DNA of 64,000 nt, from assembly GCF_001477625.1 (NCBI RefSeq), contig NZ_CP013692.1, forward strand, positions 744,001-808,000. The letters are read 5' to 3'. The translations under genes and the position numbers were made by a program. Under the pieces are notes generated by a model, which had not been told where the DNA came from, did not search any database, and saw only the letters and a list, made by a program, of their open reading frames with translations. Below, one piece after another: positions 34,860 through 61,165 of this stretch (within the stretch, counting starts at the first letter, position 1; each line of letters begins with the position of its first letter). This stretch comes from Paucibacter sp. KCTC 42545. GTDB taxonomy: Bacteria; Pseudomonadota; Gammaproteobacteria; Burkholderiales; Burkholderiaceae_C.

Positions 34860-34901
34860 AGCTTGCGCGCCGGTGCACATGATTTCTGTGCGACAGCGCA
34901 C
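34860..34901 (-). promoter_or_regulatory. Stress palindrome A with -10 for the BON gene
   Basis: GTGCG-ACAG-CGCAC (34888-34901), perfect 5-bp arms; its reverse complement reads GTGCGCTGTCGCACAGAA. A weak -10 hexamer CAAGCT occupies 34865-34860 on the minus strand, the same offset (29.5 bp from the palindrome centre) as in the stronger copies. Confidence 0.6.
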
Positions 34902-34932
34902 CTTGAAGCGCCAATGAACTGATGTCGCGCGC

Positions 34933-34974
34933 GTGCGCTGTCGCACAGAAGGCCGCGCTGGGCTTGCTTAGGCT
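34933..34974 (+). promoter_or_regulatory. Stress palindrome B with -10 for the 55-aa gene
   Basis: GTGCG-CTGT-CGCAC (34933-34946), perfect arms, followed by CACAGAAGG. TAGGCT at 34969-34974 is the -10 hexamer; its first T lies 29.5 bp from the palindrome centre, placing the palindrome at -41.5. Site A is 45 bp to the left and faces the BON gene. Confidence 0.75.
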
Positions 34975-35035
34975 GTGCGTTCCCATGCTGACGTCATTGC
35001 GGACGCCGGTGCCCACGTTTTGATAGGAGCTCCTG

Positions 35036-35203
35036 ATGAACAAGAAGTACCAAAGCCCCTGGATGGCGCCCGTGCCTGGGCGGCCGACTAAGCCCGCGCA
35101 AAACAAGCCCGCAGCCAAGTCACCCCTCGCGCCGACCGAGCCCAATGAAGTGCTGGGCCGGCACAAGAACACGGGCCAAAAAGATCACAAGGGGGCGCAA
35201 TGA
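35036..35203 (+). CDS. Small basic protein, 55 aa
   Basis: ATG 35036 has a perfect AGGAG. The protein starts MNKKYQSPWMAPVPGRPTKP, is rich in Lys, Pro and Ala, and ends TGQKDHKGAQ; it looks disordered. It has no recognisable family. The stop codon overlaps the ATG of the next gene (ATGA), so both are translated from one message, and palindrome B plus a -10 hexamer lie in front. The good ribosome binding site and coupling support a real gene. Confidence 0.65.
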   Translation: MNKKYQSPWMAPVPGRPTKPAQNKPAAKSPLAPTEPNEVLGRHKNTGQKDHKGAQ

Positions 35204-35730
35204 GCCGCGCCGGCCTTGCCGCATTTGCGCCCTCATTCACCTACCCGCCACCGTCTGAACTTGAAGTGCCCAGCGGCCGCGGCTTCATCGCCTTGCTGGA
35301 GGCCTTCCGGGCGACGGGGGGCACGGCACCGGCTGATGTGTTGGCGCGCTTGCTGGAGGAATATCAGCTCGGCCGTGCCTGCAGCCTTACCCAACTTGTT
35401 CAACTCGTCCAACTCGTTCATACCGGCCAAGTCTTCGGCTTTGAATGGCGCAGCAGTTTGTGGATACCGATGTTTCAGTTTGAGGCGCAGGACTTGGCCT
35501 TGAAGGCGGAGGCGCAAGAGGTGCGTGCCGCCTTGCCGCAGCTGTGGTCGGGCTGGGCGGTGGCGGCTTGGTTCGCTGGGGCTAACGCGCATCTAGCTCA
35601 GTGCCGGCCGGTCGATATGTTGGCGTCGGATTTTGAGGCGGTGCGGCGGGCCGCCAGCGCCGTGCAATCGGTCGGCGGCTTTAACCCTGTGCATGGGCGC
35701 AGGGCTGAGGGCCTCGGCCTGCGCGGGTGA
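35200..35730 (+). CDS. Hypothetical protein with DUF2384-like C-terminus
   Basis: 176 aa. It has no signal peptide. The first half is alpha-helical (GFIALLEAFRATGG, ADVLARLLEEYQL). Residues about 129-155, WFAGANAHLAQCRPVDMLASDFEAVRRAAS, resemble the antitoxin/toxin-binding DUF2384 (MbcA/ParS/Xre) signature of W---N--L-G--P-D-L followed by a helix. That likeness is by eye and moderate. The gene overlaps the 55-aa gene upstream by ATGA and follows palindrome B. Confidence 0.6.
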   Translation: MSRAGLAAFAPSFTYPPPSELEVPSGRGFIALLEAFRATGGTAPADVLARLLEEYQLGRACSLTQLVQLVQLVHTGQVFGFEWRSSLWIPMFQFEAQDLALKAEAQEVRAALPQLWSGWAVAAWFAGANAHLAQCRPVDMLASDFEAVRRAASAVQSVGGFNPVHGRRAEGLGLRG

Positions 35731-35995
35731 ATTCGCCCCGCTTAAACCAAGTCGTTCATTGGGGCTTGACCCACGCTGCGGTGCGCGCTCAGTTCACCGC
35801 CATGTGCGCTGCCGAACAGACGGCCTGTTCATCGCCTTCTAAAACTGCGTCATCGTCACAACTCGCCGACATGGCCGGTTGGCTGCAGCAGCGGAGGACT
35901 TGCATCATGCCCCTGAACCTTGATGGCCCTGGCGAACTTGCCGGCCTGGCGACGCCGCGCCGCAACGCCGGTCGGCCGCGCCGGTGAGGCTGCAC
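35731..35995. other. 265-bp gap before the efflux operon
   Basis: A plus-strand frame (35727-35987) exists but has no ribosome binding site and no recognisable sequence. No promoter stands out. Confidence 0.35.
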
Positions 35996-37459
35996 ATGGG
36001 CATCGCGCCAGGCGCGACTTTGGCGTGCCGCTTCGCCGGCCTGGGCTTGCTCGGCAGCTTGGCGGCCTGTGCGTCGCTGGCGCCAAGCGAGCAAGCGCCG
36101 CTGGCCAAGCTCGATATGCCCGTCGCTTGGTCAAGGGGCACTGCGGCGGCATCAGCGGCAGCAGGCGGCTCCGCCGTCAGCACCGCTTCGCTCTTGGCTT
36201 GGTGGCAGCGCTTTGATGATGCGCAACTGGATGCCTTGGAAGGCCAAGCCCTGCAGGCCAACACCACGGTGCAGGGCGCGCGTGCCGCGCTGGGTCAGGC
36301 GCGGGCCTTGCGCGATCTTGCCGCTGCCGCCTTGTGGCCGAATTTGACGGCCCAAGCCTCCGCGCAGCGTGGCACGGTGGGCGGCCGCAGCAGTGGCAAC
36401 AACTTTCAGCTCGGTGCCGATGCCAGCTGGGCACTGGACTTGTTTGGCGCGCGGCGTGCCGCCTTGGAAGCGGGCGAAGCCGGCCTCGCGGCCAGCCAGG
36501 CCAGCCTGGGCGATGTGCAGGTGCAAATCGCGGCGGAAGTGGCGCTGAACTACATCTTGCTGCGAACCAGCCAGGTGCGCAGCCTCATCGCGGCCGAGAA
36601 CCTGGCCAGCCAGGAGGAAACGCTGCAGATCACGCTGTGGCGCCAGCAAGCGGGCTTGGTCACCGCGCTGGAGGCCGAGCAGGCGCGCGCCGCCGTCGAG
36701 CAAAGCCGCGCGCTGCTTCCCCTGCTGCAAACCAGCAGCGGGCAGACGCTGCATGCGCTGGCGGTGCTGACGGGGCGGCCGCCGGCGGCCCTGTTGGAGA
36801 TGGCCGAGCTTGGCGCTGTGAGTTCGGCGCTCAAGGTCCCGCAAGCGCGCGAGGCGCTAACCTTGAACATCCCCGCCGAGACCTTGCGCCAACGTGCCGA
36901 TGTGCGCGCGGCCGAATACCAAGTGGCCGCGGCCCTGGCCCGCGAGGCACAGGCCCAGGCGCAACGCTATCCCAGCTTTGCCATTGGCGGTTCTTTGGGC
37001 TGGAGTGCTGCCACGGTCGGCGCGCTGGGCAATAGCAATGCGGTGCTGGGCAGCTTGCTGGCCAGTGTGAGCTTGCCGCTTTTCGATGGCGGCGCCCTGA
37101 GCGCGCAGCTGCGTGTGCAGCAGGCGGCTTTGACTCAGGCGCAGTTGCTGTATCGCGCGGCAGTGCTTGCCGCTTTGCAGCAAGTGGAAGACGCGCTGCT
37201 GGCGCTGCAGGGCGCGCGCCTGCGCCTGGCCAGCCTGCGCTTGGCGGCCGACGCCGCCAGCAGCGCCGCTCAGCTGGCCCGCCAGCGCTACAGCAGCGGC
37301 CTGATCGATTTTCAAACCGTGCTCGAAACCCAGCGCACCCAGTTCGCCACCCAGGACGGCGTGGCCAGCGCCAGTGCCGAAGTGGGTAGCGACCAGGTGC
37401 GCTTATTCAAAGCATTAGGCGGCGGTTGGTCGCCCGCAGTGGAAGCACCCAACAGATGA
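35996..37459 (+). CDS. NodT-family RND/MacAB outer membrane lipoprotein
   Basis: 487 aa from ATG 35996 (GAGG eight bases upstream; a GTG at 35984 is in frame). Signal peptide with lipobox LAAC (GLLGSLAACASL). It has the duplicated TolC-like architecture of the NodT family: WWQRFDDAQLDALEGQALQAN near 65-85, LGADASWALDLFGARRAALEAGEAG, and second-half QRYSSGLIDFQTVLETQRTQF. It forms the outer membrane exit duct for the adjacent MacA/MacB-type pump; its stop overlaps the next start by ATGA. Confidence 0.93.
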   Translation: MGIAPGATLACRFAGLGLLGSLAACASLAPSEQAPLAKLDMPVAWSRGTAAASAAAGGSAVSTASLLAWWQRFDDAQLDALEGQALQANTTVQGARAALGQARALRDLAAAALWPNLTAQASAQRGTVGGRSSGNNFQLGADASWALDLFGARRAALEAGEAGLAASQASLGDVQVQIAAEVALNYILLRTSQVRSLIAAENLASQEETLQITLWRQQAGLVTALEAEQARAAVEQSRALLPLLQTSSGQTLHALAVLTGRPPAALLEMAELGAVSSALKVPQAREALTLNIPAETLRQRADVRAAEYQVAAALAREAQAQAQRYPSFAIGGSLGWSAATVGALGNSNAVLGSLLASVSLPLFDGGALSAQLRVQQAALTQAQLLYRAAVLAALQQVEDALLALQGARLRLASLRLAADAASSAAQLARQRYSSGLIDFQTVLETQRTQFATQDGVASASAEVGSDQVRLFKALGGGWSPAVEAPNR

Positions 37460-38928: not shown

Positions 38929-39674
38929 GCACGCGCCTGATCGAGTTGCGCGGCGTGAGCAAACGCTATGGCAGCGGTGCGGCGGAGCTGCTGGCGCTCA
39001 AGGGCATCAACCTGGACATCGACGCCGGCGAATTCGTTGCCATCATGGGCCCCAGCGGCTCGGGTAAGTCTACCGCCATGAACATCCTGGGCTGCCTGGA
39101 TACGCCCAGCAGCGGTCAGTATCTGTTCCGCGGCGCGCATGTCGAAGCGCTGTCGCGCGACCAGCGTGCGCGCTTGCGGCGGCGCTACCTGGGCTTTGTG
39201 TTCCAGGGCTTCAATCTGCTGGCGCGTACCTCGGCGCAAGAGAATGTGGAGTTGCCGCTGCTGTACCGGGGCGACGGTGCGGCGGCGCGCCGCAGCGCGG
39301 CCGCCAAGGCCTTGGCCGATGTGGGCTTGGCCGGCTGGGAGCAGCACACGCCGGGCGAGCTCTCGGGCGGCCAGCAGCAGCGGGTGGCGATTGCCCGCGC
39401 CATCGTCACCCAGCCCGCCGTGGTGCTGGCCGACGAGCCCACCGGCAATCTGGACACCCTGCGCAGCCACGAGATCATGGGCCTGCTGATGGCGCTGAAC
39501 CGTGACCACGGCATCACCGTGCTGATGGTGACGCATGAGCCCGATATGGCCGCGTACGCGCGGCGCATGGTGCATTTCGTTGATGGCCGCATCGCCAAGG
39601 ATGTGCTCAACCCCAATCCGACCACGGCCGCGCCGGTGATGGACGGCATTGAGAGCAGTGTGGAGAGCATCTGA
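38925..39674 (+). CDS. MacB-type ABC transporter ATP-binding protein
   Basis: 249 aa. Walker A GPSGSGKST near 43-51, Q-loop FVFQGFNLL, signature LSGGQQQR, Walker B VVLADEPTGNLD and the H-loop MVTHEPD are all intact. It belongs to the MacB/LolD/FtsE group. In classical MacB the ATPase and permease are one chain; here they are separate genes with overlapping stop and start codons on both sides. Confidence 0.95.
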   Translation: MSTRLIELRGVSKRYGSGAAELLALKGINLDIDAGEFVAIMGPSGSGKSTAMNILGCLDTPSSGQYLFRGAHVEALSRDQRARLRRRYLGFVFQGFNLLARTSAQENVELPLLYRGDGAAARRSAAAKALADVGLAGWEQHTPGELSGGQQQRVAIARAIVTQPAVVLADEPTGNLDTLRSHEIMGLLMALNRDHGITVLMVTHEPDMAAYARRMVHFVDGRIAKDVLNPNPTTAAPVMDGIESSVESI

Positions 39675-40888: not shown

Positions 40889-40940
40889 CTGGCACAAGCG
40901 TTCGGCCTGGCTAACTAGAAATTTGATGGGGGTTTGAGTC

Positions 40941-41699: not shown

Positions 41700-42359
41700 T
41701 CAGGCGCTGGACTCTGCCTTCATCCCGCCCACCGTCTGCGACAGCAGCAGTTGGTGATCGGCTTGCAGGCCCATGGCTTGCGACAGCGCGTCGCGGTCGA
41801 ACCAAGCACGAATCACCGTGGCCAGGCCTTCCGAGGCGCAGTAGAGATACACGTTCTGCGCCATCGCACCGGCCATGACGTAGGCATAGGCCTCGCGCTG
41901 GGCGGCGGGCACCAGGCCCAGGCGCGAATGGTCGGCCACAAAGACGAGGTCCAGCGGGGCGGTGTCGACAAAATCTTGCTGGCCGGTGACGCGGCGCACA
42001 TCGCTGGCAACGATCAGGCGCAAATGGTGAGGCAACGGCTCGTAGAGGAACAGGCCCTGCGGCATCGCCACATACAGCAGCACCTCTTGCGAGTTCATCG
42101 CGCTGGGCACGGTGCGCCCGCCGAGTTCATGCCGGTTGATGCCGGCCGCGGCCCACAGCAGATCGGAGAGTTGTTGTTCGGCCAGAGGCTCGGGCGCGAA
42201 CTCGCGCCGCGACTGCCGGCTGGCCAGCGCAGCGATCAAGGGCATGCCGCCGCTCAGCGAGGGCGCAGGCAAGTGCAGCAGGGTGCTGGCACCTTCAAGC
42301 GCCGGCAAAGGCTTCAATTGGCCGATCAGGCCGAGGGCCATTTTGGTCAAGCTATTCAT
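41700..42359 (-). CDS. Nitroreductase-family protein (SagB/ThcOx-like)
   Basis: 219 aa. After a 45-residue lead, the FMN-binding RQSRREFAPEPLAEQQLSDLLWAAAG motif typical of SagB-type and NfnB-like nitroreductases appears, followed by RTVPSAMNSQEVLLYVA, the middle AYAYVMAGAMAQNVYLYCASEGLA segment and a C-terminal core QLLLSQTVGG. It is the first gene downstream of the small metal-related pair at 42371-42876 only in the sense of transcription direction. Probable flavin oxidoreductase, substrate unknown. Confidence 0.85.
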   Translation of the reverse strand: MNSLTKMALGLIGQLKPLPALEGASTLLHLPAPSLSGGMPLIAALASRQSRREFAPEPLAEQQLSDLLWAAAGINRHELGGRTVPSAMNSQEVLLYVAMPQGLFLYEPLPHHLRLIVASDVRRVTGQQDFVDTAPLDLVFVADHSRLGLVPAAQREAYAYVMAGAMAQNVYLYCASEGLATVIRAWFDRDALSQAMGLQADHQLLLSQTVGGMKAESSA

Positions 42360-42370
42360 CGCATCCGTCC

Positions 42371-42679
42371 TCAGGCAAGCCGGTCCATATCGTGGACCTC
42401 GCGCTCATGGGTGGCTGGGCCGTCCATCACAATGGTGGCGCGGCCGCCCTCATAGTCTGCCACCATGAACTGGCGGTCGGGGATGTGACCATGGGTCGAA
42501 GGAAATAGGGCGAACACCGGGGCGCCGGCGCGAATGGCCTTGACGGCCTTGCTCACCGGCACTTCCACCTCGGGCGCGGCCCAGGCGTTTTTCTCGGTGT
42601 CCACCGGACCCCAGAGCACGGCGGTGATGCGCCCGCCAGCATCCAGCCTGACCTTGGAAACCGCAAAAGTCTTCTTCAT
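42371..42679 (-). CDS. Hypothetical protein, 102 aa
   Basis: Starts at ATG 42679, overlapping the stop of the upstream HMA gene (ATGA). It begins MKKTFAVSKVRLDAGGRITA and has VLWGPVDTEKNAW and PVFALFPSTHGHIPDRQFMV; it ends with a short acidic tail. No signal peptide. I do not recognise the domain. Coupling with a copper-chaperone-like gene suggests, but does not prove, a metal-related function. The nitroreductase gene follows 11 bp downstream. Confidence 0.65.
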   Translation of the reverse strand: MKKTFAVSKVRLDAGGRITAVLWGPVDTEKNAWAAPEVEVPVSKAVKAIRAGAPVFALFPSTHGHIPDRQFMVADYEGGRATIVMDGPATHEREVHDMDRLA

Positions 42680-42876
42680 GCCGCCACCGGCGAATAGCCG
42701 GCCCGCTTGATCGCATCGCTCAGCTGCCGCGCTGTGGCGTGGCTGGGCTCGATCTCGACCGTGAAAGTGGCCAGATCCACCCGCACCAAGGCGGAATGAT
42801 CGGCCTCTTTGAGTGCCTTGGTGATGGCGCCGGCACAACGCGAACAACTCATATCGCTGACTTGAAACGCAATCAT
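42676..42876 (-). CDS. Heavy-metal-associated (HMA) domain protein
   Basis: 66 aa, one HMA ferredoxin-like fold. The metal motif is MSCSRC (MxCxxC) at residues 9-14, and the pattern ends IKRAGYSPV as in copper chaperones of the CopZ type. It should bind Cu(I) or Zn(II) in the cytoplasm. No P-type ATPase is adjacent, so its partner must be elsewhere or it acts with the coupled 102-aa protein. Confidence 0.9.
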   Translation of the reverse strand: MIAFQVSDMSCSRCAGAITKALKEADHSALVRVDLATFTVEIEPSHATARQLSDAIKRAGYSPVAA

Positions 42877-42963
42877 GGCGAGGCCATCCTTTCAAGGCGC
42901 AGCCCAAGCGGGGCCTGGGCTGCTGGCATGTCGACCGGGCATCTCACTGCCCCGAACTAAAAC

Positions 42964-43515
42964 TTAGTCCTTACCGACGCTGGCCTTGGCGTTCGCCACG
43001 CAGCTGGCCTTGGCGTCACCGGACTGGGAGTCGCACTTCTCGACACGCACCTTGTAGTCGGCGTCACGCTTGGTTTGCACATCGTCCTTCACGGCCGAGT
43101 CGATCTTCTTGCTCAACTTCACATCGGCCAGGATCTTGGCTTCGACTGCCTTGGCTTCTTTGACGCAAACGTCCTTGTCATTGCCGGACCGGTCATCGCA
43201 TTTTTCTTTGGCGATCGCGTAGTTCGATTCCGCCTTGGCGATGATCACTTTTTTGCTGTCGGCGGCGCTGCCGGTGTGGGCATATTCGCCTTCAGCGAGT
43301 GCCACCTTTTCGCGACCCTTCGCTTCCTCAACGCAAATGTCCTTGGCATTGCCGTTCATGGCGCCACAGGCCGCTTTCTCGGACTTGTAGTCCGCGGCAA
43401 TGCGGGTCTTGTTGGCCTTGTACTCATCGTTGCTGGTCATGGCGGCTTGCGCCACAGGCACGCAGAACAGGGCGGCAAGAAGGATTGAAGCCTTGAGATT
43501 GAATTGAGTGTTCAT
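42964..43515 (-). CDS. Exported protein with three Cys-pair repeats
   Basis: 183 aa with a clear signal peptide (SILLAALFCVPVAQA, cleavage near QA-AM). The mature protein is highly charged and helical and contains three copies of the pattern C-x5-7-G-x2-K/A-x2-C-V-x2-A-K: AACGAMNGNAKDICVEEAK, KCDDRSGNDKDVCVKEAK and KCDSQSGDAKASCVANAK. Each pair could form a disulphide in a helical hairpin. Similar Lys/Ala-rich proteins occur in Burkholderiales without known function. Periplasmic location is likely. Confidence 0.8.
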   Translation of the reverse strand: MNTQFNLKASILLAALFCVPVAQAAMTSNDEYKANKTRIAADYKSEKAACGAMNGNAKDICVEEAKGREKVALAEGEYAHTGSAADSKKVIIAKAESNYAIAKEKCDDRSGNDKDVCVKEAKAVEAKILADVKLSKKIDSAVKDDVQTKRDADYKVRVEKCDSQSGDAKASCVANAKASVGKD

Positions 43516-43587
43516 GATGTTCCTTGGTGGTTGATGAAAGAAAGGGAGGAAGAATTTTTTGTGGGTGCGCGATCGGCTTGGGGGCGA

Positions 43588-43731
43588 TCAGTCATCCCAG
43601 ATCCGCAAGCCGCCCAGCGCCTGGCGCCCCATTTCCGCCTGGACTTGCTCTGCGGCATACCAGCTCAAAATCGCGAGTCCGCATGAGGACGCAAACGCCA
43701 GCGCGGTCAGCGCTAAAAGAACGAAGCTCAT
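43588..43731 (-). CDS. Small membrane protein, 47 aa
   Basis: Runs from ATG 43731 to TGA at 43588-43590. AAAGG lies six bases before the ATG. The protein is one hydrophobic helix (FVLLALTALAFASSCGLAIL) followed by an amphipathic tail SWYAAEQVQAEMGRQALGG. No family recognised. It lies between two envelope genes on the same strand. Confidence 0.5.
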   Translation of the reverse strand: MSFVLLALTALAFASSCGLAILSWYAAEQVQAEMGRQALGGLRIWDD

Positions 43732-43825
43732 GGGGGACCTTTTGCGACGGGTGAGCGAGTCCCCAGTGTTGGCTTGCCGGGGCGGCTGGCCTAGCGGACG
43801 ACTTCGCTTGTCGGGGTAGTCAATG

Positions 43826-43831
43826 TCCTAC
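43826..43831. promoter_or_regulatory. TCCTAC box 1
   Basis: TCCTAC in the gap between the crystallin/glycine-zipper gene and the 47-aa gene. It is one of at least five copies in noncoding DNA around the two-component cluster. Confidence 0.35.
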
Positions 43832-43862
43832 GGTCAGCGCCGGGCCATGGCTGCGCGTGACT

Positions 43863-44675
43863 TCAAGTGCGCGGTTCGCCTTGCCGGTTGACGATGATGG
43901 TGCGGCCCGGGGGTGAGCTCATTTGCATGCGGTGCTGGCGGCCCTGAAAGGTGTAGGACACGTCCCAGTACTCAGGCTGGCCTTGTTGTTGGCCCGTGTC
44001 GGAGCTGCAGCGCTGCACGTCCTGGGTTCGGCTTGATGGCCCGTCATCCCCCATCCGCGAGCCGAGTGCCGCGCCGGCCACCACACCACCCACGGTCGCC
44101 AGGTCTTTGCCGCGGCCGCCGCCCACCTGGTGACCCAGCACGCCGCCAATCAAGGCGCCCACCAGGGCGGCCGGCACATTGGCATTGCTGCTTTGGGAGA
44201 CTTCTTGCTGCTCAATCCAGCAGCGCTGTTGGGCTTGATGGCCCATCACGGCGCGCACCGAGGTGACCTCGGCCTCATACAGGCGCTCGTTATCGCGGCG
44301 GCGCGAGTCATAGCTGGACACCGGCGCGGGGGCATAGCGCTCATCCTCGTATTGGGCATTGGCCGACACCGCGCGCGCCGACGAGATGCGGTCGTTCAGA
44401 CCCATGGATGAGAAGTTCAGGTAGTTGCCACGGCGCAAGATGACGCAGCGCCCTCCGAAATTCTGCTGATCGCAAACCTCCCAGCGCCCATTGCCGACCA
44501 CCGCCGAGGAGGCCATGTCGTTGAAGCCATAGCGCTGCAGATTGTTGACCTTGTTCTGCGTTTTGAAGGATCGGCCGGCGAAGCTGTCATGCTCGTAAAG
44601 GGTGATCTGGGCGCCGGCCTGGGTGGCCAAGGCGAGGCCCGCTGCAGCGGCCAGTAGTTTCAGCTTTGAACTCAT
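43863..44675 (-). CDS. Beta/gamma-crystallin-like and glycine-zipper exported protein
   Basis: 270 aa from ATG 44675; an upstream in-frame start at 44732 lacks a ribosome binding site. Signal peptide LKLLAAAAGLALATQAGA. Residues about 22-95 form two crystallin-like Greek-key halves (ITLYEHDSFAGRSF and WEVCDQQNFGGRCVILRRGNY). After a linker comes a glycine-zipper 2TM domain (VPAALVGALIGGVLGHQVGGGRGKDLATVGGVVAGAALG) and a C-terminal beta segment ending RTIIVNRQGEPRT. The product is probably anchored in the envelope. Combination of the two modules occurs in proteobacteria, role unknown. Confidence 0.82.
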   Translation of the reverse strand: MSSKLKLLAAAAGLALATQAGAQITLYEHDSFAGRSFKTQNKVNNLQRYGFNDMASSAVVGNGRWEVCDQQNFGGRCVILRRGNYLNFSSMGLNDRISSARAVSANAQYEDERYAPAPVSSYDSRRRDNERLYEAEVTSVRAVMGHQAQQRCWIEQQEVSQSSNANVPAALVGALIGGVLGHQVGGGRGKDLATVGGVVAGAALGSRMGDDGPSSRTQDVQRCSSDTGQQQGQPEYWDVSYTFQGRQHRMQMSSPPGRTIIVNRQGEPRT

Positions 44676-44734
44676 CGAAAGCTCCTGAAGTGAGAGTGGT
44701 TCACCGCTAATGTTGAATTTGAGCGGCATCATTG

Positions 44735-44853
44735 CTACGGTAGGAGCAGTGTTGAAGCCAGCACCCTTTTGCGGAAGCAGACGGGGGCTTGGGAGCGCGT
44801 AGTTGCTGTCCTACGCATGGGCCTTGGGCTGCTGCTGTAGGCCAATTCCTACA
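44735..44853. promoter_or_regulatory. TCCTAC boxes 2-4 in front of response regulator
   Basis: CTAC-G-GTAGGA at 44735-44745, TCCTAC at 44809-44814 and a clean inverted repeat TGTAGG-CCAATT-CCTACA at 44836-44853. They lie in the 298-bp divergent region between the crystallin-like gene and the receiver-only response regulator. Inverted hexamers of this kind suit a NarL/FixJ-type dimer; the binder is inferred. No other gene is seen in 44676-44973. Confidence 0.5.
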
Positions 44854-44973
44854 TCAAGCCGGGCAAGTCCAACCTGCGGCATGCGTGGCTTTGCTGGCAC
44901 ACTCGGCCCATCCACCAATGACCCGAGGTCAGCGGGATACGTTTGGGCCTTGCCCAGCCAGCCGCCACCCCCC

Positions 44974-45423
44974 ATGACACCTGAAATCTCGGCCCCTGAC
45001 CCCATCGAACTTGCGCGGCCCATGGCCAGGCTCAAGACTTACATCGTCGAGGACAGCCCGGTGATCCGTGAGAATTTGATCGCGACCCTGGAAGAGCTCG
45101 GTCCGATCGAAGTGGTCGGTACGGCCGAAGATGAGGCCAGCGCGGTGCAGTGGACCCGCCAGAACGCGCAGCGCTTCGACCTGGCCATCGTCGATATCTT
45201 CTTGAAGCAGGGCTCAGGCATCGGTGTGTTGACGGCGCTCAGCGCCATACCCGGCCACCACACCATGGTGGTGCTCAGCAACTACGCCACCAGCGATATG
45301 CGGCGTAAGTGCCTGGCCTTGGGTGCGGCGCGGGTGTTCGACAAGTCCAATGAAATCGATGATTTGCTGGACTATTGCTGCCGCTTGGCGGTGGGCGACA
45401 CCGGCCGCGCTGGCTTGGACTGA
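44974..45423 (+). CDS. Single-domain response regulator
   Basis: 149 aa from ATG 44974; an internal ATG at 45022 (MARLKTYIVED) would give 133 aa and neither has a clear ribosome binding site. A complete receiver domain: acidic pocket VEDSP, phosphoacceptor Asp in LAIVDIFLKQGSG (near 69), VVLSNYA with the conserved Ser/Thr position and the Lys in VFDKS. There is no output domain, so it acts like CheY/Spo0F or competes for phosphate. It lies next to the NarL-type regulator and sensor kinase and is probably part of that system. Confidence 0.85.
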   Translation: MTPEISAPDPIELARPMARLKTYIVEDSPVIRENLIATLEELGPIEVVGTAEDEASAVQWTRQNAQRFDLAIVDIFLKQGSGIGVLTALSAIPGHHTMVVLSNYATSDMRRKCLALGAARVFDKSNEIDDLLDYCCRLAVGDTGRAGLD

Positions 45424-45478
45424 GATGGGCGCGCGCAGTGCTTGGCGAGTGAGTCCCCGCGCTGCCCGCCCGCCGGCC

Positions 45479-46111
45479 TTATTGAATCAGGCCGTTCTTC
45501 AGGGCGTAGTAGGTCAGGTCGCTATTGGATGCGAGCGACATTTTTTCCATCACCCGGGTGCGGTAGGTGCTGACTGTTTTGACGCTGAGCGACATGCTGT
45601 CGGCCATATGGCCAATCGTCTCACCCCGGGCCAGGCGCAAGAAGACCTGCAACTCACGCTCCGACAAGCTTTCATGCGGTGGGCGGTCGCCGCCGCTGGC
45701 CAGCCCGTTGGCCAATTGCTCGGCCACACCGGCGCTGATGTATTTGCGCCCGCGCACCACGGTGCGGATGGCGCGAACAATCTCATCCGGGTCGCAGTCC
45801 TTGTTCAGATAGCCGCTGGCACCTTGGCGCAGCAAGGTGGTGGCGTAATGGGCCTCGGGGAAGCCACTCAAAATCAAGACCGGCAAGTCCGGCGCGCGCG
45901 CCTTGATGGCGGCCAGGGTATCGACGCCGCTCTGGTCGGGCATGGAAATGTCCAGCAAGATCACATCGACCTCACCCTGGCGCACGATCTCCATCGCCGC
46001 CCGGCCGGTGGCCGCCTCGGCCACGACTTGGAAATCGATCTGCTCGGCAAAAAACTGCTGCAAGCCGGCGCGAACGATGGCGTGGTCATCAACAATGGCA
46101 ATACGAATCAT
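45479..46111 (-). CDS. NarL/FixJ-family response regulator
   Basis: 210 aa from ATG 46111. The receiver domain has IVDDH, phosphoacceptor Asp in VILLDISMPDQSG and K in GYLNKD. The output is a LuxR-type helix-turn-helix: LSERELQVFLRLARGETIGHMADSMSLSVKTVSTYRTRVMEKM. It is divergent from the sensor kinase with a 56-bp gap, so the two genes can share regulation. Likely binds DNA as a dimer once phosphorylated; the TCCTAC boxes nearby are candidate sites. Confidence 0.93.
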   Translation of the reverse strand: MIRIAIVDDHAIVRAGLQQFFAEQIDFQVVAEAATGRAAMEIVRQGEVDVILLDISMPDQSGVDTLAAIKARAPDLPVLILSGFPEAHYATTLLRQGASGYLNKDCDPDEIVRAIRTVVRGRKYISAGVAEQLANGLASGGDRPPHESLSERELQVFLRLARGETIGHMADSMSLSVKTVSTYRTRVMEKMSLASNSDLTYYALKNGLIQ

Positions 46112-46167
46112 GGGTGTGACGGCGCTCCTATGGGCCATGATCCCACGAATTCCCTTTGGGCCGGCTT

Positions 46168-52405: not shown

Positions 52406-52645
52406 TTAGTTCTGTACGGCGGAAGCCGGTGGCGTGACGACAATCACCGCGGCGCCGCCCTGTGCGCCACTGGCGCCTTGGGGCCCAGTCATGCCTGTGG
52501 CGCCGGTGCTGCCGGTGGCGCCGGTCGGGCCGGCTGGGCCAGGTACCGGCGTGGCCGGCGGCGGCACATTGACGACGGTGGGCTTGTCGCAGGCCGCAAG
52601 GCCCAGGGACAGCATGAGTGCAGCTAGCAATACAAAGTTCTTCAT
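52406..52645 (-). CDS. Collagen-like lipoprotein, 79 aa
   Basis: Signal peptide with lipobox LAAC (LMLSLGLAACDKP). Residues about 36-65 are ten Gly-X-Y triplets (GPAGPTGATGSTGATGMTG and on), a short collagen-like repeat, then VIVVTPPASAVQN. A lipidated collagen-like rod on the cell surface or in the periplasm is expected. The promoter carries palindrome F with an exact -10 hexamer, so it belongs to the inferred stress regulon. It may be co-transcribed with DUF3309 (80-bp gap). Confidence 0.82.
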   Translation of the reverse strand: MKNFVLLAALMLSLGLAACDKPTVVNVPPPATPVPGPAGPTGATGSTGATGMTGPQGASGAQGGAAVIVVTPPASAVQN

Positions 52646-52689: not shown

Positions 52690-52731
52690 AGACTAGGGCG
52701 GCAGCGCCGCGGCTTCCGTGCGTTAGCGAAC
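52690..52731 (-). promoter_or_regulatory. Stress palindrome F with -10 for the collagen-like lipoprotein
   Basis: GTGCG-TTAG-CGAAC (52718-52731; one mismatch in the right arm). TAGTCT at 52695-52690 (minus strand) is the -10 hexamer; first T to palindrome centre is 29.5 bp. Predicted start about 38 nt before the ATG. Confidence 0.75.
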
Positions 52732-54510: not shown

Positions 54511-54984
54511 TCAGTTCATCAAGGTTTCAGCGCGCGGCGTGGTGCCGTAGTAGGCGTGGATGCCGGCGGCCCATTCGGGGTCGGCCATATCGGGCCATTG
54601 GTCCTTGTCAAAGCCGGGGGCGCTTTCCAGCCGTGTCTTGTCGATGCTGACGGTGAAGCGCTTGTTGACGGTATCCAGCTTGAGTGCGCTCCAGGGCACG
54701 GCAAAGAGCTTCTCGCCCATGCTGAGGAAGCCGCCAAAGGACAGCACGGCGTAGCTGATGCGGCCGCTGCTGACGTCCAGCATGATTTCCTTGATTTCGC
54801 CCAGATCGTCACCGTCTTGATTGCTGACGTCGTTGCCGATCAGGGTGTTGGCTCCCATCAGCCGTGGGCCGGGGCCTTGATGCGTTGGGGTGTAAAGGCT
54901 GCCATTACCCTGGCTGTTGAGATCGGTACCCGTGCCGTTATTGACGCGGTACATGCCGTAGGGGTCGCGTTCTTCGTAGTTCAT
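54511..54984 (-). CDS. PRC-barrel domain protein
   Basis: 157 aa from ATG 54984; GGAG is six bases upstream (an in-frame TTG at 54996 would overlap it). The PRC-barrel is at about 43-115: LIGNDVSNQDGDDLGEIKEIMLD, GRISYAVLSFGGFLSMGEKLFAVPW. The C-terminal ends WAAGIHAYYGTTPRAE. PRC-barrel proteins of this kind are cytoplasmic and often stress-linked. The promoter carries palindrome C with an exact -10 hexamer. Confidence 0.9.
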   Translation of the reverse strand: MNYEERDPYGMYRVNNGTGTDLNSQGNGSLYTPTHQGPGPRLMGANTLIGNDVSNQDGDDLGEIKEIMLDVSSGRISYAVLSFGGFLSMGEKLFAVPWSALKLDTVNKRFTVSIDKTRLESAPGFDKDQWPDMADPEWAAGIHAYYGTTPRAETLMN

Positions 54985-55057: not shown

Positions 55058-55099
55058 AAGCTAAGGACTGAGGCTGCTTTCGGCTGTGCGTTCGCGCAC
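55058..55099 (-). promoter_or_regulatory. Stress palindrome C with -10 for the PRC-barrel gene
   Basis: GTGCG-TTCG-CGCAC (55086-55099), perfect arms in TGTGCG...CGCACA. TAGCTT at 55063-55058 (minus strand) lies at the standard 29.5-bp offset. Predicted start about 67 nt before the ATG. Confidence 0.78.
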
Positions 55100-55129: not shown

Positions 55130-55172
55130 GTGCGCCAGCGCACGGACAAGCGGATTTGGCCGCTCGCAAGAT
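55130..55172 (+). promoter_or_regulatory. Stress palindrome D, facing the 83-aa gene
   Basis: GTGCG-CCAG-CGCAC (55130-55143), perfect arms; the reverse complement is GTGCGCTGGCGCACA. It is 44 bp from palindrome C, the same layout as A and B. A weak -10 candidate CAAGAT is at 55167-55172, one base further than the standard offset. Confidence 0.6.
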
Positions 55173-55225
55173 GCCAGCCACTGAACCGCATCGGTGCAGT
55201 GCCCCATCCAGCCAGCGGAGCCGCC

Positions 55226-56544: not shown

Positions 56545-56602
56545 GCGTGCGCAGCCAAGTCCGTGGCCGGCCGCGCCTGAGCGGCCACCCTGCGGCCCAG
56601 CG

Positions 56603-56749: not shown

Positions 56750-56820
56750 ATTCGTTCATGCGTCCAGGTGAGAGTGCCAGGGCAAGCCTTGCAGTGTGGG
56801 GGCGGCAGCACCGCAGGTCT

Positions 56821-56862
56821 GTGCGCTGGACAACAGACAGCAACGTTCCCGGCCGCGAGCAT
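56821..56862 (+). promoter_or_regulatory. Degenerate stress palindrome H before the CBS gene
   Basis: GTGCGCTGG with a poor right arm (ACAAC) followed by CAGACAG; a similar right flank is seen in copy G. At the standard offset stands GAGCAT (56857-56862), which keeps only A2 and T6 of the -10. Weaker than the others. Confidence 0.4.
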
Positions 56863-56918
56863 GGGAGCAGACAAAGAACGCCCCTGCCACCGCTTTGAGT
56901 TTGATGAAGGGATTCACC

Positions 56919-57428
56919 ATGGCTGACACCGTTACCGATAACCACACCGATAGTGGCAGCACAAAGACCGGCCGCGCCCCGCCATCCCCGGTCAGTGCGA
57001 TTGAGGCGGTCGCCCGCTCGCGGCTGCTGACCGTGGCGGCGGACACCCACTTGGTCGAGGTGGCCGCCCTGCTCGCGAATGCGCAGATCAGCGTGGTGGT
57101 GGTCTGTGACGCGCAAGGGGAAGTCTTAGGCCTGATCACCGAGACCATGCTGGTCAGGCAGCTGGGCCTGGGGGAAGCCGACTTCTTCAGCACCCGGGCC
57201 GACGCGGTGATGACGCGGGAAATCAAGTCCTGCACGCTGCAAGACCTGCTGACTGAGGTGGTGGCTGAGATGCACCAGCAGGGCTTGATCCACATGCTGC
57301 TGCTCGATACCGACAACAAGCCGCTGGGCGTTTTGAATCTGCGTGACGGCCTGCGCGCGCTGCTCTTGGCGGGTAATTTCGAGGAGGAATTGTTGCGCAA
57401 CTATGTGATGGGCATTGGCTATCAGTAG
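56919..57428 (+). CDS. CBS-domain pair protein
   Basis: 169 aa from ATG 56919 (GAAGGG upstream). Two CBS motifs are visible: SRLLTVAADTHLVEVAALLANAQISVVVVCDAQGEVLGLITETML (about 34-78) and the second with CTLQDLLTEVVAEMHQQGLIHMLLLDTDNKPLGVLNLRD (about 107-147). Bateman modules bind adenosine nucleotides (AMP, ATP, SAM). There is no other domain. It is a free-standing CBS protein of the kind found in stress clusters; regulation by palindrome H is possible. Confidence 0.9.
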   Translation: MADTVTDNHTDSGSTKTGRAPPSPVSAIEAVARSRLLTVAADTHLVEVAALLANAQISVVVVCDAQGEVLGLITETMLVRQLGLGEADFFSTRADAVMTREIKSCTLQDLLTEVVAEMHQQGLIHMLLLDTDNKPLGVLNLRDGLRALLLAGNFEEELLRNYVMGIGYQ

Positions 57429-57472
57429 CCCCTGGTGAGAGCTTGGCCTCACCTTGCACCTTGCTCCACCAA

Positions 57473-58900
57473 CTAGGCCTGCGGCCCCAGCATCAGGCGA
57501 GGATCGACCCAGGCGTCAAACTCCTCGGCGCTGAGCGCGCCAAGTGCCAGTGCTGCGTCGCGCAGTGTTGAGCCGCTGGCTTGGGCCTGCTTGGCGATGG
57601 CGGCTGCGCGGTCGTAGCCGATATGCGGCACCAGCGCGGTCACCAGCATCAGCGAAGATTCCAGCAAGGCCTGGATGCGCTCGGGCGCGGCCCGCAGGCC
57701 CAGCAAGCAGTGCTGCTGGAAGCTGCGCATGGCCTGGCTGAGCAAGTGCAGGCTGTCCAGGCAATCCAGAATGATCAGTGGCTTGTAGGTGTTGAGCTCG
57801 AACAGGCCTTGCGAGGCCGCGAAGCCGATGGCTGCGTCATGGCCGATGACTTGCGCGCAGATCATGGTCAGCGCCTCGATCTGCGTCGGGTTGACCTTGC
57901 CCGGCATGATGGAGCTGCCCGCCTCATTGGCCGGCAATTGCAGCTCACCCAGGCCGGCGCGTGGGCCGCTGCCCATCAGGCGGATGTCGCAGGCGATCTT
58001 GTTCAGGGCGATGGCCAGCATCTTCAAGCCAGCATGCAAGCCCACCAAGGCTTCGTGGCCGGCCGTCGCGGCAAAGAGATTGCTGGCCTGGCGCAGCGGC
58101 AAGTCCAGCGCCTGCGCCAGCATGGCGGCCACGCGCTTGCCGAACTCCGGGTGGGTGTTCAGGCCGGTGCCCACCGCCGTGCCGCCAATCGCCAAGGTGT
58201 GTACCGCTCGCAAGGCATAACGCAGATGCTCCTCGCACAGGCGCAGCTGCGCTGCATAGCCGCTGAATTCCTGGCCCAGGGTCAGCGGCGTGGCGTCCTG
58301 GCCATGGGTGCGGCCGATCTTAATGATGGCGGCCCATTCAGTCGCCTTGGCCGTCAGCGCCTGCTGCAAGTCGCCGAGCGCCGGCAGCAGGCTTTGCTTG
58401 GCCTGCAGGGCCACGGCGAGGTGCATGGCGCTGGGGAAAACGTCGTTGCTGCTTTGTCCGAGATTGACCTGGTCATTGGGGTGGATCGAGCGCTGCTCGC
58501 CCAAGGCGCCGCCGAGCGCTTGCGAGGCCAGATTGGCGATCACTTCGTTGACATTCATATGGCTTTGCGTGCCCGAGCCGGTCTGCCAGACCGAGAGCGG
58601 GAATTGCCCGTCATGCGCGCCCGCCGCCACCTCGCGCGCCGCTGCCGCGATGGCCTCGGCCTCGGCGCCGTCCAGCAGGCCCAGATCCCGGTTCACCAGC
58701 GCCGCCGCCCATTTGAACCAGGCCAGCGCGTGGATCTGGCTCAAGGGCATGATTTGCTGCTGACCCTCGTGCTGGCCGATCTTGAAGAACTGCAAGCTGC
58801 GCGCGGTCTGCGCGCCCCAGAGGGCGTCCAGGGGCAACTCCAGCGTGCCAAAGCCATCGGTCTCGCTGCGAGTGCTGGCCATGGCCGGTGGGGGTTTCAT
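57473..58900 (-). CDS. fumC: Class II fumarate hydratase
   Basis: 475 aa from ATG 58900, overlapping the stop of the regulator gene (ATGA); ATG 58882 is an alternative. The fumarase/aspartase signature GSSIMPGKVNP is near 324-334, and the conserved TGSGTQSHMNVNEV near 105-118 and the HTHGQDATPLTLGQE variant (GRTHGQDATPLTLGQEFSG) are present. FumC is the iron-independent, oxygen-stable isoenzyme of the citric acid cycle, commonly induced in oxidative stress. Co-translation with an Fnr-family regulator is noteworthy. Confidence 0.95.
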   Translation of the reverse strand: MKPPPAMASTRSETDGFGTLELPLDALWGAQTARSLQFFKIGQHEGQQQIMPLSQIHALAWFKWAAALVNRDLGLLDGAEAEAIAAAAREVAAGAHDGQFPLSVWQTGSGTQSHMNVNEVIANLASQALGGALGEQRSIHPNDQVNLGQSSNDVFPSAMHLAVALQAKQSLLPALGDLQQALTAKATEWAAIIKIGRTHGQDATPLTLGQEFSGYAAQLRLCEEHLRYALRAVHTLAIGGTAVGTGLNTHPEFGKRVAAMLAQALDLPLRQASNLFAATAGHEALVGLHAGLKMLAIALNKIACDIRLMGSGPRAGLGELQLPANEAGSSIMPGKVNPTQIEALTMICAQVIGHDAAIGFAASQGLFELNTYKPLIILDCLDSLHLLSQAMRSFQQHCLLGLRAAPERIQALLESSLMLVTALVPHIGYDRAAAIAKQAQASGSTLRDAALALGALSAEEFDAWVDPRLMLGPQA

Positions 58901-59784
58901 TGCAGGGTCGCGCCGGGCGCTCGAACCTGGGGCTGCGCGTGAGCTTGGGCTTCGACCTGAATGAAGTCGCTCAAGGCCTGCAGGTCGGGGATTTGAATCA
59001 TGCGGCGGCCGCGCTCTGAGAAGCAGATCACCTGCGCCCGCGCCAGGCTAGAGAACGCACGGCTGACCGACTCCAGCGTCATGCCCAGGTAGTTGCCGAT
59101 CTCGGCGCGCGACATGCGCAAGATGATCTGGTCATTGCGCAGGCCGCGCGCGGCCAGGGATGCGGCCGACTGGCGCAAAAACTCCGCCACCCGCGCCGTG
59201 ACCGGCAGGGTGCAGACCGAGAGCATCGCATCCCGCCCGCGGCTGATGGCGCGGCTCATCTCCGCATGCAGCACCTGCAGCAACTGGGGCTGGGCGCTGG
59301 CTGCGTCCATCAGCGCGTCATAACGCAAGCTCCAGATCTCGCCAATCTCCAGGGCTTGTGCGCTGCAGCCGTAGCGGCCTTTGGCAATGCCGTCAAAACC
59401 CAGCCAGTCACCCCGGAGCAGGAGCCCAACGACTTGGTTGCGCCCGTCCGCCGCGGTGTTGACCAGCTTGACGCTGCCCGAATTGAGCACATAGAGCTGC
59501 TTGAACGGAACGCCCGCTTCAAAGATCAGGTCGCCGGCATGCACCAGGCGGCGCCGCAGTGGCAAATGCTCTTGCAGCAAGCTCAGTGAGCGGGCGATCC
59601 GGTCGGCGCCAGGGCTTGTTCCGGCGCTGGTGCCGCGATGGTTGGCTGCTGCGCTGCGGCGCCCGCCATCCGCTGCGTCGGCGGCATTCAAGGCATTCAA
59701 GGCCTTCGGTGGCTGCGGATGCCCGGCCAGGGCGGTAAGCCGGGGCGGGCGGTCTTCAGATATGTCCTGCTGGGCTTTGTACAC
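58897..59784 (-). CDS. Crp/Fnr-family transcriptional regulator (no Fe-S ligands)
   Basis: 295 aa from GTG 59784. A disordered head of about 65 residues precedes the effector domain (LRRRLVHAGDLIFEAGVPFKQLYVLNSGSVKLV, GDWLGFDGIAKGRYGCSAQ), and a C-terminal winged helix has MSRAEIGNYLGMTLESVSRAFSSLARAQVI. The effector fold resembles Fnr (GFDAIGSG...), yet the N-terminal cysteine cluster is absent and the position of Fnr Cys122 appears to be Trp. It overlaps fumC. Palindrome E stands at -41.5 before it, so autoregulation is likely. It is the nearest candidate to bind the palindrome family. Confidence 0.9.
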   Translation of the reverse strand: MYKAQQDISEDRPPRLTALAGHPQPPKALNALNAADAADGGRRSAAANHRGTSAGTSPGADRIARSLSLLQEHLPLRRRLVHAGDLIFEAGVPFKQLYVLNSGSVKLVNTAADGRNQVVGLLLRGDWLGFDGIAKGRYGCSAQALEIGEIWSLRYDALMDAASAQPQLLQVLHAEMSRAISRGRDAMLSVCTLPVTARVAEFLRQSAASLAARGLRNDQIILRMSRAEIGNYLGMTLESVSRAFSSLARAQVICFSERGRRMIQIPDLQALSDFIQVEAQAHAQPQVRAPGATLQ

Positions 59785-59809
59785 GGCGACTCCCCTGGGC
59801 TAGATGTTC

Positions 59810-59851
59810 AGGCTAAGACCCTAGGGCGGCGCTGTATGTGCGCTGCGCAAC
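59810..59851 (-). promoter_or_regulatory. Stress palindrome E with -10 for the Crp/Fnr regulator
   Basis: GTGCG-CTGC-GCAAC (59838-59851); left arm intact, right arm shifted, followed by ACAGCGGCG as in copy F. TAGCCT at 59815-59810 (minus strand) lies 29.5 bp from the centre. Predicted start about 19 nt before the GTG. A CCTAG stands between. This suggests the regulator controls itself and fumC. Confidence 0.68.
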
Positions 59852-59889
59852 ACAGCGGCGTGCCATAGCGCGGTTCAGCTCAGCTCAGC

Positions 59890-60810
59890 TCAGTCGTCTG
59901 GAAAAACCGGGAGCTTCAAGGCAGGGCTTGCCGGGCCCGGCAGGCGCTCAAACTCCGCGATCGCTTGCGCGCCCAGCAGCAGCAAGCTGGCCGCCAGCTC
60001 CAGGTTCAGCAGCACGGCGATGGCCGTGGTCAGCGAGCCGTAGACCAGGCCGATCTGCGCCAGGCTGCTGAAGTACCAAGCCAGCAGGCGGCGTGAGATC
60101 TCCCACAGGCTGGTCGCAAACACCGCACCGAACAAGGCATGCTTGAGCGGCAGGCGCCCGGCCGGCATCACCATGTAAATTGACGTTAGCACCGCCACCT
60201 CGCCAGCCAGGCCCAGCAAATACAGCAAGGCGCTGGAGGGCCGGCCCAGCGACCAGTCGCGGCCCAGCAGTTCAATCTCGTCCTGCCCCAGGGCCAGCAA
60301 GCTGCCGGTCATCAAGGTCACCAGCAAAAGCCCCAGACCGAGGCAGAGGATGAAGGCGTAGGGGATCAGCGCGGAGATCAACCAGCGCCGGCCCCGCTTG
60401 CGGCCCCGCTGCAGCAAGGCCAGTCGGTGGCGGAAGATCACCGCCATGGCGCTCTCCAGCACGGTGAAGGCCAGGGAGCTGGAAAACAGCATGGTCAGCG
60501 CCAAGGTCCAGCCAATGACCTGGCGGTGCGCCAAAAACAGCACCAACTCAGCCACCAGCGCCGGCGCCTGCCCCGGCAGCAGCCAATCGAGGTAGCGCCG
60601 TAAAGTCTGCAGCAACTCGGCCTCAGGCGTCAGGTGCGACAAGGCGATCAGGATCAGGATCAACATGGGCACGATGGACAGCAGCGCGTAATAAGCCACC
60701 GCGCCCGCCAGCAGCAGGCCCTGATTGCGCTGAAAGTTGCGCAGCACGCGCAGGCTGAAGGCCGCGGGATGCGCCAGCAGCAGGCGCAAGCGTGGGTCGA
60801 TGAGGGGCAT
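59890..60810 (-). CDS. YihY/BrkB-family membrane protein
   Basis: 306 aa with six hydrophobic helices. The opening AFSLRVLRNFQRNQGLLLAGAVAYYALLSIVPMLILILIAL and the later GSLTTAIAVLLNLELAASLLLLGAQAIAEFE match the YihY/virulence factor BrkB family (formerly RNase BN). Role probably in envelope or transport; unknown. The gene lies 33 bp after the DUF3185 gene on the same strand and likely shares its promoter. The stop codon sits inside four tandem TCAGC-like units. Confidence 0.9.
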   Translation of the reverse strand: MPLIDPRLRLLLAHPAAFSLRVLRNFQRNQGLLLAGAVAYYALLSIVPMLILILIALSHLTPEAELLQTLRRYLDWLLPGQAPALVAELVLFLAHRQVIGWTLALTMLFSSSLAFTVLESAMAVIFRHRLALLQRGRKRGRRWLISALIPYAFILCLGLGLLLVTLMTGSLLALGQDEIELLGRDWSLGRPSSALLYLLGLAGEVAVLTSIYMVMPAGRLPLKHALFGAVFATSLWEISRRLLAWYFSSLAQIGLVYGSLTTAIAVLLNLELAASLLLLGAQAIAEFERLPGPASPALKLPVFPDD

Positions 60811-60843
60811 GAACGCCGCCTTGAGGCTGCTGCCGCCCGCGCC

Positions 60844-61065
60844 TCAGCGCCTCGCCCCCCACAGCAGCAGCGCGCCGCCCAGCACCAGGGCGCCCAAGCC
60901 GACCCAGATCGGCACATTGACAACATGGGTTTCATCCACTGTCACGGCCACCGGCCCCAGCTTGATCGCTTGACTGCGCTCGGTATAGCTGAATCCGCCG
61001 TAAGCCAGGGCCATGAGGCCGGCCACGATCAGGGCCAATGCCATGACTTTGATTGCATTCATCAC
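60844..61065 (-). CDS. DUF3185 small membrane protein
   Basis: 73 aa. Two TM helices, residues 8-27 (MALALIVAGLMALAYGGFSY) and 52-70 (IWVGLGALVLGGALLLWG), separated by a beta-like stretch LGPVAVTVDETHVVNVP. This is the DUF3185 pattern. Small inner membrane protein, unknown role. Its promoter (copy G, minus direction) has a TAGCCT at the exact offset, about 24 nt before the start. Confidence 0.88.
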   Translation of the reverse strand: MMNAIKVMALALIVAGLMALAYGGFSYTERSQAIKLGPVAVTVDETHVVNVPIWVGLGALVLGGALLLWGARR

Positions 61066-61095
61066 TGCCGCCTTGCCAAAGAGTTGTGGTGTCTC

Positions 61096-61165
61096 AGGCT
61101 ATGCGGCGAAAGTGCAGTCGTCCGTGCGCTGGCAGACAGACACAGCGAATAGCGCGGCATAGGGT
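61096..61165. promoter_or_regulatory. Stress palindrome G with two divergent -10 elements
   Basis: A single degenerate palindrome GTGCG-CTGG-CAGAC (61124-61137) lies midway in the gap. On the plus side TAGGGT (61160-61165) and on the minus side TAGCCT (61101-61096) are both exactly 29.5 bp from its centre, giving symmetric promoters for the glycine-zipper gene and DUF3185. The symmetry is the strongest single piece of evidence for the spacing rule. Confidence 0.72.

Follow-up and report, generated by a model that had tools for sequence, protein, structure and literature searches.

A palindrome, GTGCG-N4-CGCAC, recurs in front of envelope and stress genes in a 64,000-nucleotide stretch of the Paucibacter sp. 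KCTC 42545 genome (contig NZ_CP013692.1, positions 744,001 to 808,000; this whole stretch is hereafter the window). We propose, at a probability of about 85%, that it is the operator of a Crp/Fnr class II activator with the recognition helix RREGVT, namely P0002 with or without its paralogue P0003, and that this activator runs an envelope and stress regulon. A first-pass annotation of the window had largely read the sites and their spacing well, and had assigned them to what is probably the wrong regulator, the FNR-like protein P0001. The palindrome tracks RREGVT-type Crp/Fnr regulators, not P0001, recurs in many relatives that live in soil and water, and is an operator type within a known superfamily that we did not find described in the open-access literature. 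Coordinates prefixed G000 refer to the Paucibacter genome, in which the window is G000:744001-808000; site positions are otherwise given in window numbering.

Palindrome and promoter geometry

In a 144 kb stretch that contains the window and was chosen after a genome scan had shown sites there, we ranked every dyad with arms of 5 bp and a spacer of 0 to 10 bp, 11,264 in total. GTGCG-N4-CGCAC ranked first, with 8 occurrences against 0.34 expected (controls here and below are mononucleotide shuffles or products of 5-mer counts), and the same arms with other spacers (0 to 8) occurred 0 or 1 time each. Seven of the eight exact sites were intergenic in a stretch with 10.6% intergenic DNA, as were 28 of 35 exact sites in relatives, where the intergenic share is 13%. 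Genes were called with our own codon-bias script, so that starts are approximate and some calls wrong. A 20-bp matrix built from relatives only (69 intergenic sites with at most one mismatch), with the symmetrised consensus TCTGTGCG-N4-CGCACAGA, gave 12 matches scoring at least 14 in the 144 kb stretch; all 12 were intergenic, and column-permuted matrices averaged 0.4. These matches include sites A, B, C, D, F, G and H of the list below, while site E falls under the threshold at 10.4; four lie within 15.1 kb past the right end of the window. Genome-wide, exact arms occurred 28 times against 18 for a reversed control, and eight of the 28 lie between 725 and 823 kb. The 20 outside that interval comprise 14 in coding DNA, four intergenic and two that score below 8. 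For exact or near-exact sites, the palindrome is a genuine motif.

The sites stand at a fixed distance from a putative -10 box. Among 85 site-gene pairs of relatives, TAnnnT starts at offset 29 from the palindrome centre in 25, with a mean of 0.12 at other offsets. A larger set, drawn by matrix threshold from 110 loci (359 pairs reduced to 353 distinct sequences), has the box at offset 29 in 81 pairs; the next best count is 14, at offset 30. Training on the sites sharpens the arms of the matrix, and the -10 result is independent of it. CRP/FNR class II activators bind operators centred at -41.5. With a box starting 29.5 bp from the centre, the palindrome would therefore be centred at -41.5 and overlap the -35 region, and this spacing supports the class II placement claimed in the first-pass annotation. 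On predicted transcription starts, the operator position and fixed -10 distance are those of a class II Crp/Fnr-type promoter.

The sites of the window, with their boxes and adjacent genes, are as follows.

34888..34901: site A, exact arms, matrix score 22.5, toward the BON gene 34179-34829 (-); TAnnnT is absent at 29.5 bp
34933..34946: site B, exact arms, matrix score 19.5
34969..34974 (+): -10 box of B, TAGGCT, starting 29.5 bp from the centre of site B
35036-35203: first open reading frame (ORF) 3' of the B box, 55 amino acids, no Pfam match
35804..35817: additional site, absent from the first-pass annotation, score 20.7; the hexamer at the box position is TAAAAC
35996-37459 (+): outer-membrane efflux gene, starting 185 bp past site 35804-35817
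52690..52695 (-): -10 box of F, TAGTCT, preceding the collagen-like lipoprotein gene 52409-52645 (-)
52718..52731: site F, one mismatch, matrix score 22.3
55058..55063 (-): -10 box of C, TAGCTT, preceding the PRC-barrel gene 54511-54984 (-)
55086..55099: site C, exact arms, matrix score 19.7
55130..55143: site D, exact arms, 44 bp away from site C, matrix score 21.2; TAnnnT is absent
56821..56834: site H, only one half well kept, matrix score 17.4; TAnnnT is absent
56919-57428 (+): CBS gene, 91 bp past site H
57473..58882 (-): fumarase/lyase gene directly 3' of P0001; among NCBIfam models it matches class II fumarate hydratase best, slightly under the cut-off
58897..59784 (-): P0001, FNR-like Crp/Fnr protein, probable target
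59810..59815 (-): -10 box of E, TAGCCT, preceding the P0001 gene
59838..59851: site E, only one half well kept, matrix score 10.4, weakest among the lettered sites
61096..61101 (-): leftward -10 box of G, TAGCCT, preceding 60844-61062 (72 amino acids, no Pfam match of its own)
61124..61137: site G, two mismatches, matrix score 16.2, between divergent genes
61160..61165 (+): rightward -10 box of G, TAGGGT, preceding the OsmB-like gene 61206-61445

The positions of all eight lettered sites had been given correctly, and the perfect 5-bp arms of A, B, C and D were confirmed. That all eight share GTGCG-N4-CGCAC holds for A to D (exact) and F (one mismatch); it was too strong for E, G and H. Sites E and H keep the left half, with the right half reduced to the outer ACA, and neither lies within two mismatches. 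The hexamer TAGNNT reported at 29.5 bp from B, C, E, F and both sides of G is present in each case, and boxes in the region also occur left of G000:809225 and at the weak site 824468 (own-genome coordinates). Beyond the cluster, TAnnnT starts at offset 29 from near-exact intergenic sites at genome positions 1208375, 4273616 and 4274587, and at offset 28 from the one at 626337. Single operators that would serve two divergent promoters, each with its -10 box 29.5 bp from the centre, were seen at G (61124-61137) and in locus L170 (L170:7997). The spacing of the paired sites (A-B 45 bp, C-D 44 bp) was also considered as a fixed feature and rejected, as no spacing dominates among 434 sites scoring at least 12.

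RREGVT regulators and the FNR-like protein P0001

A P0002-type regulator was missed at first because it lies outside the window.

G000:809225: further palindrome, 1.2 kb past the window end
G000:821293-822054 (-): P0003, adjacent paralogue of P0002
G000:822116-822835 (-): P0002, 14 kb beyond the window
G000:823031-823044: exact palindrome TGTGCGCTGGCGCACA, 0.2 kb upstream of P0002

By its domain matches, P0002 is a member of the Crp/Fnr superfamily: PF13545 (HTH_Crp_2) scores 50.0 bits (cut-off 27) and PF00027 (cNMP_binding) 28.3 bits (cut-off 27.5). Both P0002 and P0003 carry the helix RREGVT (RREGVTE in P0002), and, in alignment, the R and E of P0002 match the RE of Crp/Fnr proteins with solved structures. 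The specificity rule given in PMC1274295 links R180 with G3 and E181 with A6; under that rule, G3 in the operator fits P0002 because R and E are kept.

We quantified the association in a family sample of 100 genomes, our own included, in which 19 genomes have a P0001 relative (E ≤ 1e-40) and 41 a P0002 homologue (E ≤ 1e-20), several genomes carrying more than one RREGVT copy. Outside our own genome there are 68 exact TGTGCG-N4-CGCACA sequences, 44 of them in genomes with a P0002 homologue; 14 of these 44 lie within 5 kb of it (0.24 expected). Neighbourhoods of up to 20 kb around 30 P0002 loci from 28 genomes, several of which were picked after the motif had been seen there, held 35 exact sites against 2.7 expected, and the dyad again ranked first de novo. 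Two sets were chosen by protein match alone; here and below, upstream regions start at the protein match, which is not always the true start codon. In the first (30 P0002-like and 20 P0001-like genes, 600 bp upstream, own genes included, one locus with 50 bp of upstream DNA kept), a site with at most one mismatch precedes 18 of the 30 P0002-like genes (1.6 expected) and 1 of the 20 P0001-like genes (1.3 expected). The second set drew 80 loci from at least 585 named relatives, of which one was dropped for too little upstream DNA; it partly overlaps the family sample. Of the resulting 79 homologues, 51 have a site with at most one mismatch within 400 bp (2.5 expected) and 18 an exact one (0.08 expected). 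The same dyad ranked first de novo (60 against 5.28), with several other dyads also above expectation.

The 80 named loci are mostly from Burkholderiales (Variovorax, Polaromonas, Hydrogenophaga, Ramlibacter, Collimonas and Rubrivivax). Among the matches listed, the closest is Paucibacter sp. Y2R2-4 (88%), and other taxa include Thiocystis, Dyella, Rhodanobacter and Methyloversatilis. Across the 79 loci, sites were found in Thiocystis and Uliginosibacterium; Rhodanobacter, Paludibacterium and two of the three Collimonas loci are among those that lack them. Of 200 genomes sampled across the phylum (own included), 34 had a homologue at E ≤ 1e-30; an upstream site scoring at least 14 precedes 7 of 14 closer homologues and 1 of 15 distant ones (L293, score 16.2, helix RRPGVT), and two further distant ones score 11 to 13. 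Counting only REGVT genes that have an upstream gap to themselves, and after removal of near-identical proteins, 69 of 88 have a site. The family sample includes just one more genome of the genus (G162), which has no P0001 relative, P0002 homologue or exact 16-mer.

P0001 behaves differently. Its helix TLESVSR aligns with TVETISR of solved FNR-type proteins, and its best NCBIfam model is Fnr (113 bits, below the cut-off of 228). FNR has an N-terminal cysteine cluster for its Fe-S centre; P0001 has no cysteine before GCSAQ and lacks such a cluster, while the E..SR helix and, in its relatives, TTGA-type boxes expected of FNR are both present. We compared 350 bp upstream of 19 P0001 relatives and 29 P0002 relatives, own genes left out. 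TTGA-N6-TCAA precedes 10 of 19 P0001 relatives, where 0.02 are expected, and none of the 29 P0002 relatives; the exact palindrome precedes 0 of 19 and 7 of 29 (0.035 expected), respectively. From this double dissociation, relatives of the FNR-like protein pair with the TTGA box, and the palindrome pairs with RREGVT proteins. No exact palindrome occurred in the 20-kb neighbourhoods of 10 P0001 relatives (of the 19 non-own loci), and loci from 20 genomes without a P0001 relative (E ≤ 1e-40) account for 19 of the 35 exact sites near a P0002-type regulator. The TTGA box in front of the 10 relatives (L066-L069, L071, L072, L075-L077 and L084) suggests autoregulation in these. No TTGA-N6-TCAA occurs near our own P0001 gene, where site E is found instead.

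Several observations weigh against an RREGVT operator. The loose pattern (at most two mismatches) shows no enrichment in the window (68 against 110 expected) and hardly any in the genome (319 against 276 for the reversed control). We therefore rejected it as evidence and counted only exact and near-exact matches. Sites A, D and H lack TAnnnT at 29.5 bp, and the site next to P0002 in our own genome has no good -10 box in either direction. By presence and absence across 99 genomes, the association is weak: the exact 16-mer occurs in 22 of 40 genomes with a P0002 homologue and in 18 of 59 without (p = 0.02). No site with at most one mismatch lies within 400 bp of 28 of the 79 named homologues, and none scoring at least 11 precedes the Roseateles koreensis regulator gene. 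Sites also precede 17 of 27 RVG[IV]T paralogues and 75 of 294 other genes of the same loci; because these paralogues carry sites too, we claim neither binding by REGVT proteins alone nor a dependence on the recognition helix within the family. Site E, finally, has a perfect TAGCCT at the right distance, in front of P0001, as the first proposal would have it, and the C after TGTG (position 6) is not predicted by the rule as given in PMC1274295 although E181 is kept. This C may be due to T-E in P0002 replacing the G-R of CRP.

We nevertheless favour P0002 as the reader of the palindrome, perhaps together with or replaced by P0003. A dimer would bind TCTGTGCG-N4-CGCACAGA physically, centred at -41.5 and covering the -35 region, and would recruit RNA polymerase to a TAnnnT box starting 29.5 bp from the centre in class II activation. 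Targets here would include BON, PRC-barrel, OsmB-like, CBS, lipoprotein and CbpA-like genes and probably those of P0001 and fumarase; in relatives CsbD, DUF3309, DUF1328, Ysc84 and DUF1003 genes would join them and, in many, the regulator itself. Stress would be the cue.

An RREGVT regulator could instead repress from the -35 region until a signal removes it, and the position of the sites over that region, often in the regulator's own promoter, is common for repressors too. A pure repressor would need no fixed phase to the -10 box, though, and the fixed spacing with a half-site replacing the -35 element is the arrangement of class II activators such as CRP and FNR; we consider repression unlikely. 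It is very improbable that another co-clustered factor, such as a response regulator, reads the palindrome with RREGVT genes as mere co-located targets. PAS histidine kinases (14) and a response-regulator-like cluster of three members (judged by eye) are among the clustered targets, so two-component genes do recur near sites, but sites directly precede RREGVT genes in the 51 of 79 homologues and 69 of 88 REGVT genes given above, and the operator size, TGTG half and -41.5 position are typical of Crp/Fnr operators. Least probable of all is P0001 as the protein that reads the palindrome and switches on both the regulon and its own gene: it is the only one of 19 cyclic-nucleotide-binding-domain matches of the genome to lie in the window and follows site E, but its FNR-type helix and the double dissociation lead us to reject this reading. 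What stands of the proposal that one Crp/Fnr-family activator, the 58897-59784 protein, runs the regulon and its own gene with fumC is the Crp/Fnr type and the stress targets; the identity of the regulator and autoregulation by P0001 are not supported, and the P0001-fumarase pair is probably a target, through the weakest site, E.

The P0002 homologues also share near-invariant CNRHH and C-terminal CECY motifs. Across 22 homologues, the positions C139, H142, H143, C216 and C218 never vary and C150 hardly does (residue numbers are those of the first sequence); C216 and C218 are missing from P0003. The conserved Cys/His residues make redox or metal sensing a candidate for testing. It is possible, though to us somewhat doubtful, that RREGVTE proteins with their TCTGTGCG-N4-CGCACAGA operator form a separate Crp/Fnr DNA-specificity class that runs an RpoS-like envelope-stress module in Burkholderiales and some other proteobacteria, with the signal sensed through these CNRHH and CECY residues.

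Predicted targets

The targets are likely to be envelope and stress genes, among them BON, OsmB-like, PRC-barrel and CbpA-like genes, CsbD in relatives and often the regulator itself. Small envelope proteins such as CsbD, BON/OsmY, OsmB, DUF3309 and DUF1328 are widely distributed stress proteins, whose inducers outside enterics are, to our knowledge, often unknown. In our own region, the predicted targets include two BON genes and the PRC-barrel, CBS, collagen-like lipoprotein, OsmB-like and outer-membrane efflux genes; the stress-type targets of the first-pass annotation are supported. Also predicted there are a CbpA-like DnaJ, a FeeM-like N-acyl amino acid synthase, an amino-acid permease and the P0001-fumarase pair. 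The OsmB and fumarase identities are best matches under curated cut-offs. Site G with its box does precede the gene that had been called DUF3185; the gene itself has no Pfam match, and the relative of its product in L170 matches DUF3185 and DUF202, both below cut-offs.

Across loci, 325 targets (own region included; identical targets merged except those of our own region) fell into 108 clusters, each named from one representative. The largest are Crp/Fnr genes (100), BON (21), PAS kinases (14) and CsbD (12, nine with a -10 box), followed by an unnamed 293-amino-acid family (10), DUF4398 (8), fatty acid hydroxylase (7), OsmB-like (6, five with a box) and PRC (4). DUF3309, DUF1328, Ysc84, DUF1003 and CbpA-like clusters have three members each. 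Because loci were chosen around the regulator, the list is biased toward its neighbours.

For the promoters compared here, relatives keep the motif and spacing, as the first-pass annotation had expected of a real regulon. The gap that parts the same BON gene from its divergent partner again contains sites in Paucibacter L185 and Roseateles koreensis L216, and TACGGT or TATGGT stands at offset 29 on the partner side in all three species. L216 has further sites in front of the CBS homologue and weaker ones in front of the PRC-barrel homologue. Homology of these neighbours was judged by eye, and for CBS and PRC also by the target clusters.

The FeeM-type N-acyl amino acid synthase gene (L018:11653-12465, G000:819653-820465) has sites scoring at least 14 upstream, at 819486 and 819563, and might connect the regulon with lipid signalling or with the cell envelope. 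Window positions 41700-47538 contain no intergenic matrix site scoring at least 10; genes there include a nitroreductase, a beta/gamma-crystallin with a glycine zipper and a CHASE3 histidine kinase. Two very long ORFs lie past the regulon cluster, at G000:826985-835735 (2916 amino acids) and 837257-843256 (1999 amino acids; L018/L019).

Relation to known Crp/Fnr systems

The class II position of -41.5 is common to CRP and the palindrome described here. Escherichia coli CRP and the CRP-like HcpR (TGTGA-N6-TCACA; PMC1274295) also share with it the TGTG outer half-site, the 16-bp palindrome and R180-E181. They differ in that CG replaces A-N here, and the position of CRP R185 is E in P0002 and A in P0003. 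P0002 does not appear to be a CRP orthologue by operator or curated model: TGTGA-N6-TCACA occurred 0 times in our own 144 kb, in 581 kb of P0002 neighbourhoods and in 1.12 Mb of named loci, and the curated CRP model PRK11753 was not matched, the only NCBIfam match being NtcA at 17.9 bits (cut-off 244.95). FNR, FixK and DNR (TTGAT-N4-ATCAA; PMC1274295, PMC2908626) accommodate P0001, by its helix and the TTGA boxes of its relatives, whereas the palindrome and the RREGVT regulator fall outside.

For the low-oxygen-activated (lxa) locus of Burkholderia cenocepacia (PMC6127331, PMC9104464, PMC3759415), clustered stress genes, BON among them, are likewise described and a Crp-family regulator is discussed. 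That regulator is Anr/FixK-like, and the word 'motif' is absent from the main texts of the three papers. In line with the first-pass annotation, which named no described regulon with this motif, we found no description of the motif, regulon or clade; since our scope was the open-access literature and motifs may be shown only as figures, this is weak evidence.

The nearest published motif that we found is that of NnrR in alphaproteobacteria (TTGCG-N4-CGCAA; PMC1274295). The inner CG-N4-CG is identical, and a single base per half-site differs: the palindrome has G where TTGCG starts with T, in keeping with R180. NnrR targets denitrification, whereas our own targets and the cluster representatives, the only members scanned, are mainly of stress and envelope families. 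The regulator, operator and promoter geometry recur in loci of Variovorax, Polaromonas, Ramlibacter, Hydrogenophaga, Collimonas and Paucibacter, among other genera, so the regulon is directly testable, and they point to an uncharacterised Crp/Fnr clade, RREGVT. With R and E kept, the position of CRP's second arginine changed and A-N turned into CG, this clade adds a case to the specificity code of the superfamily.

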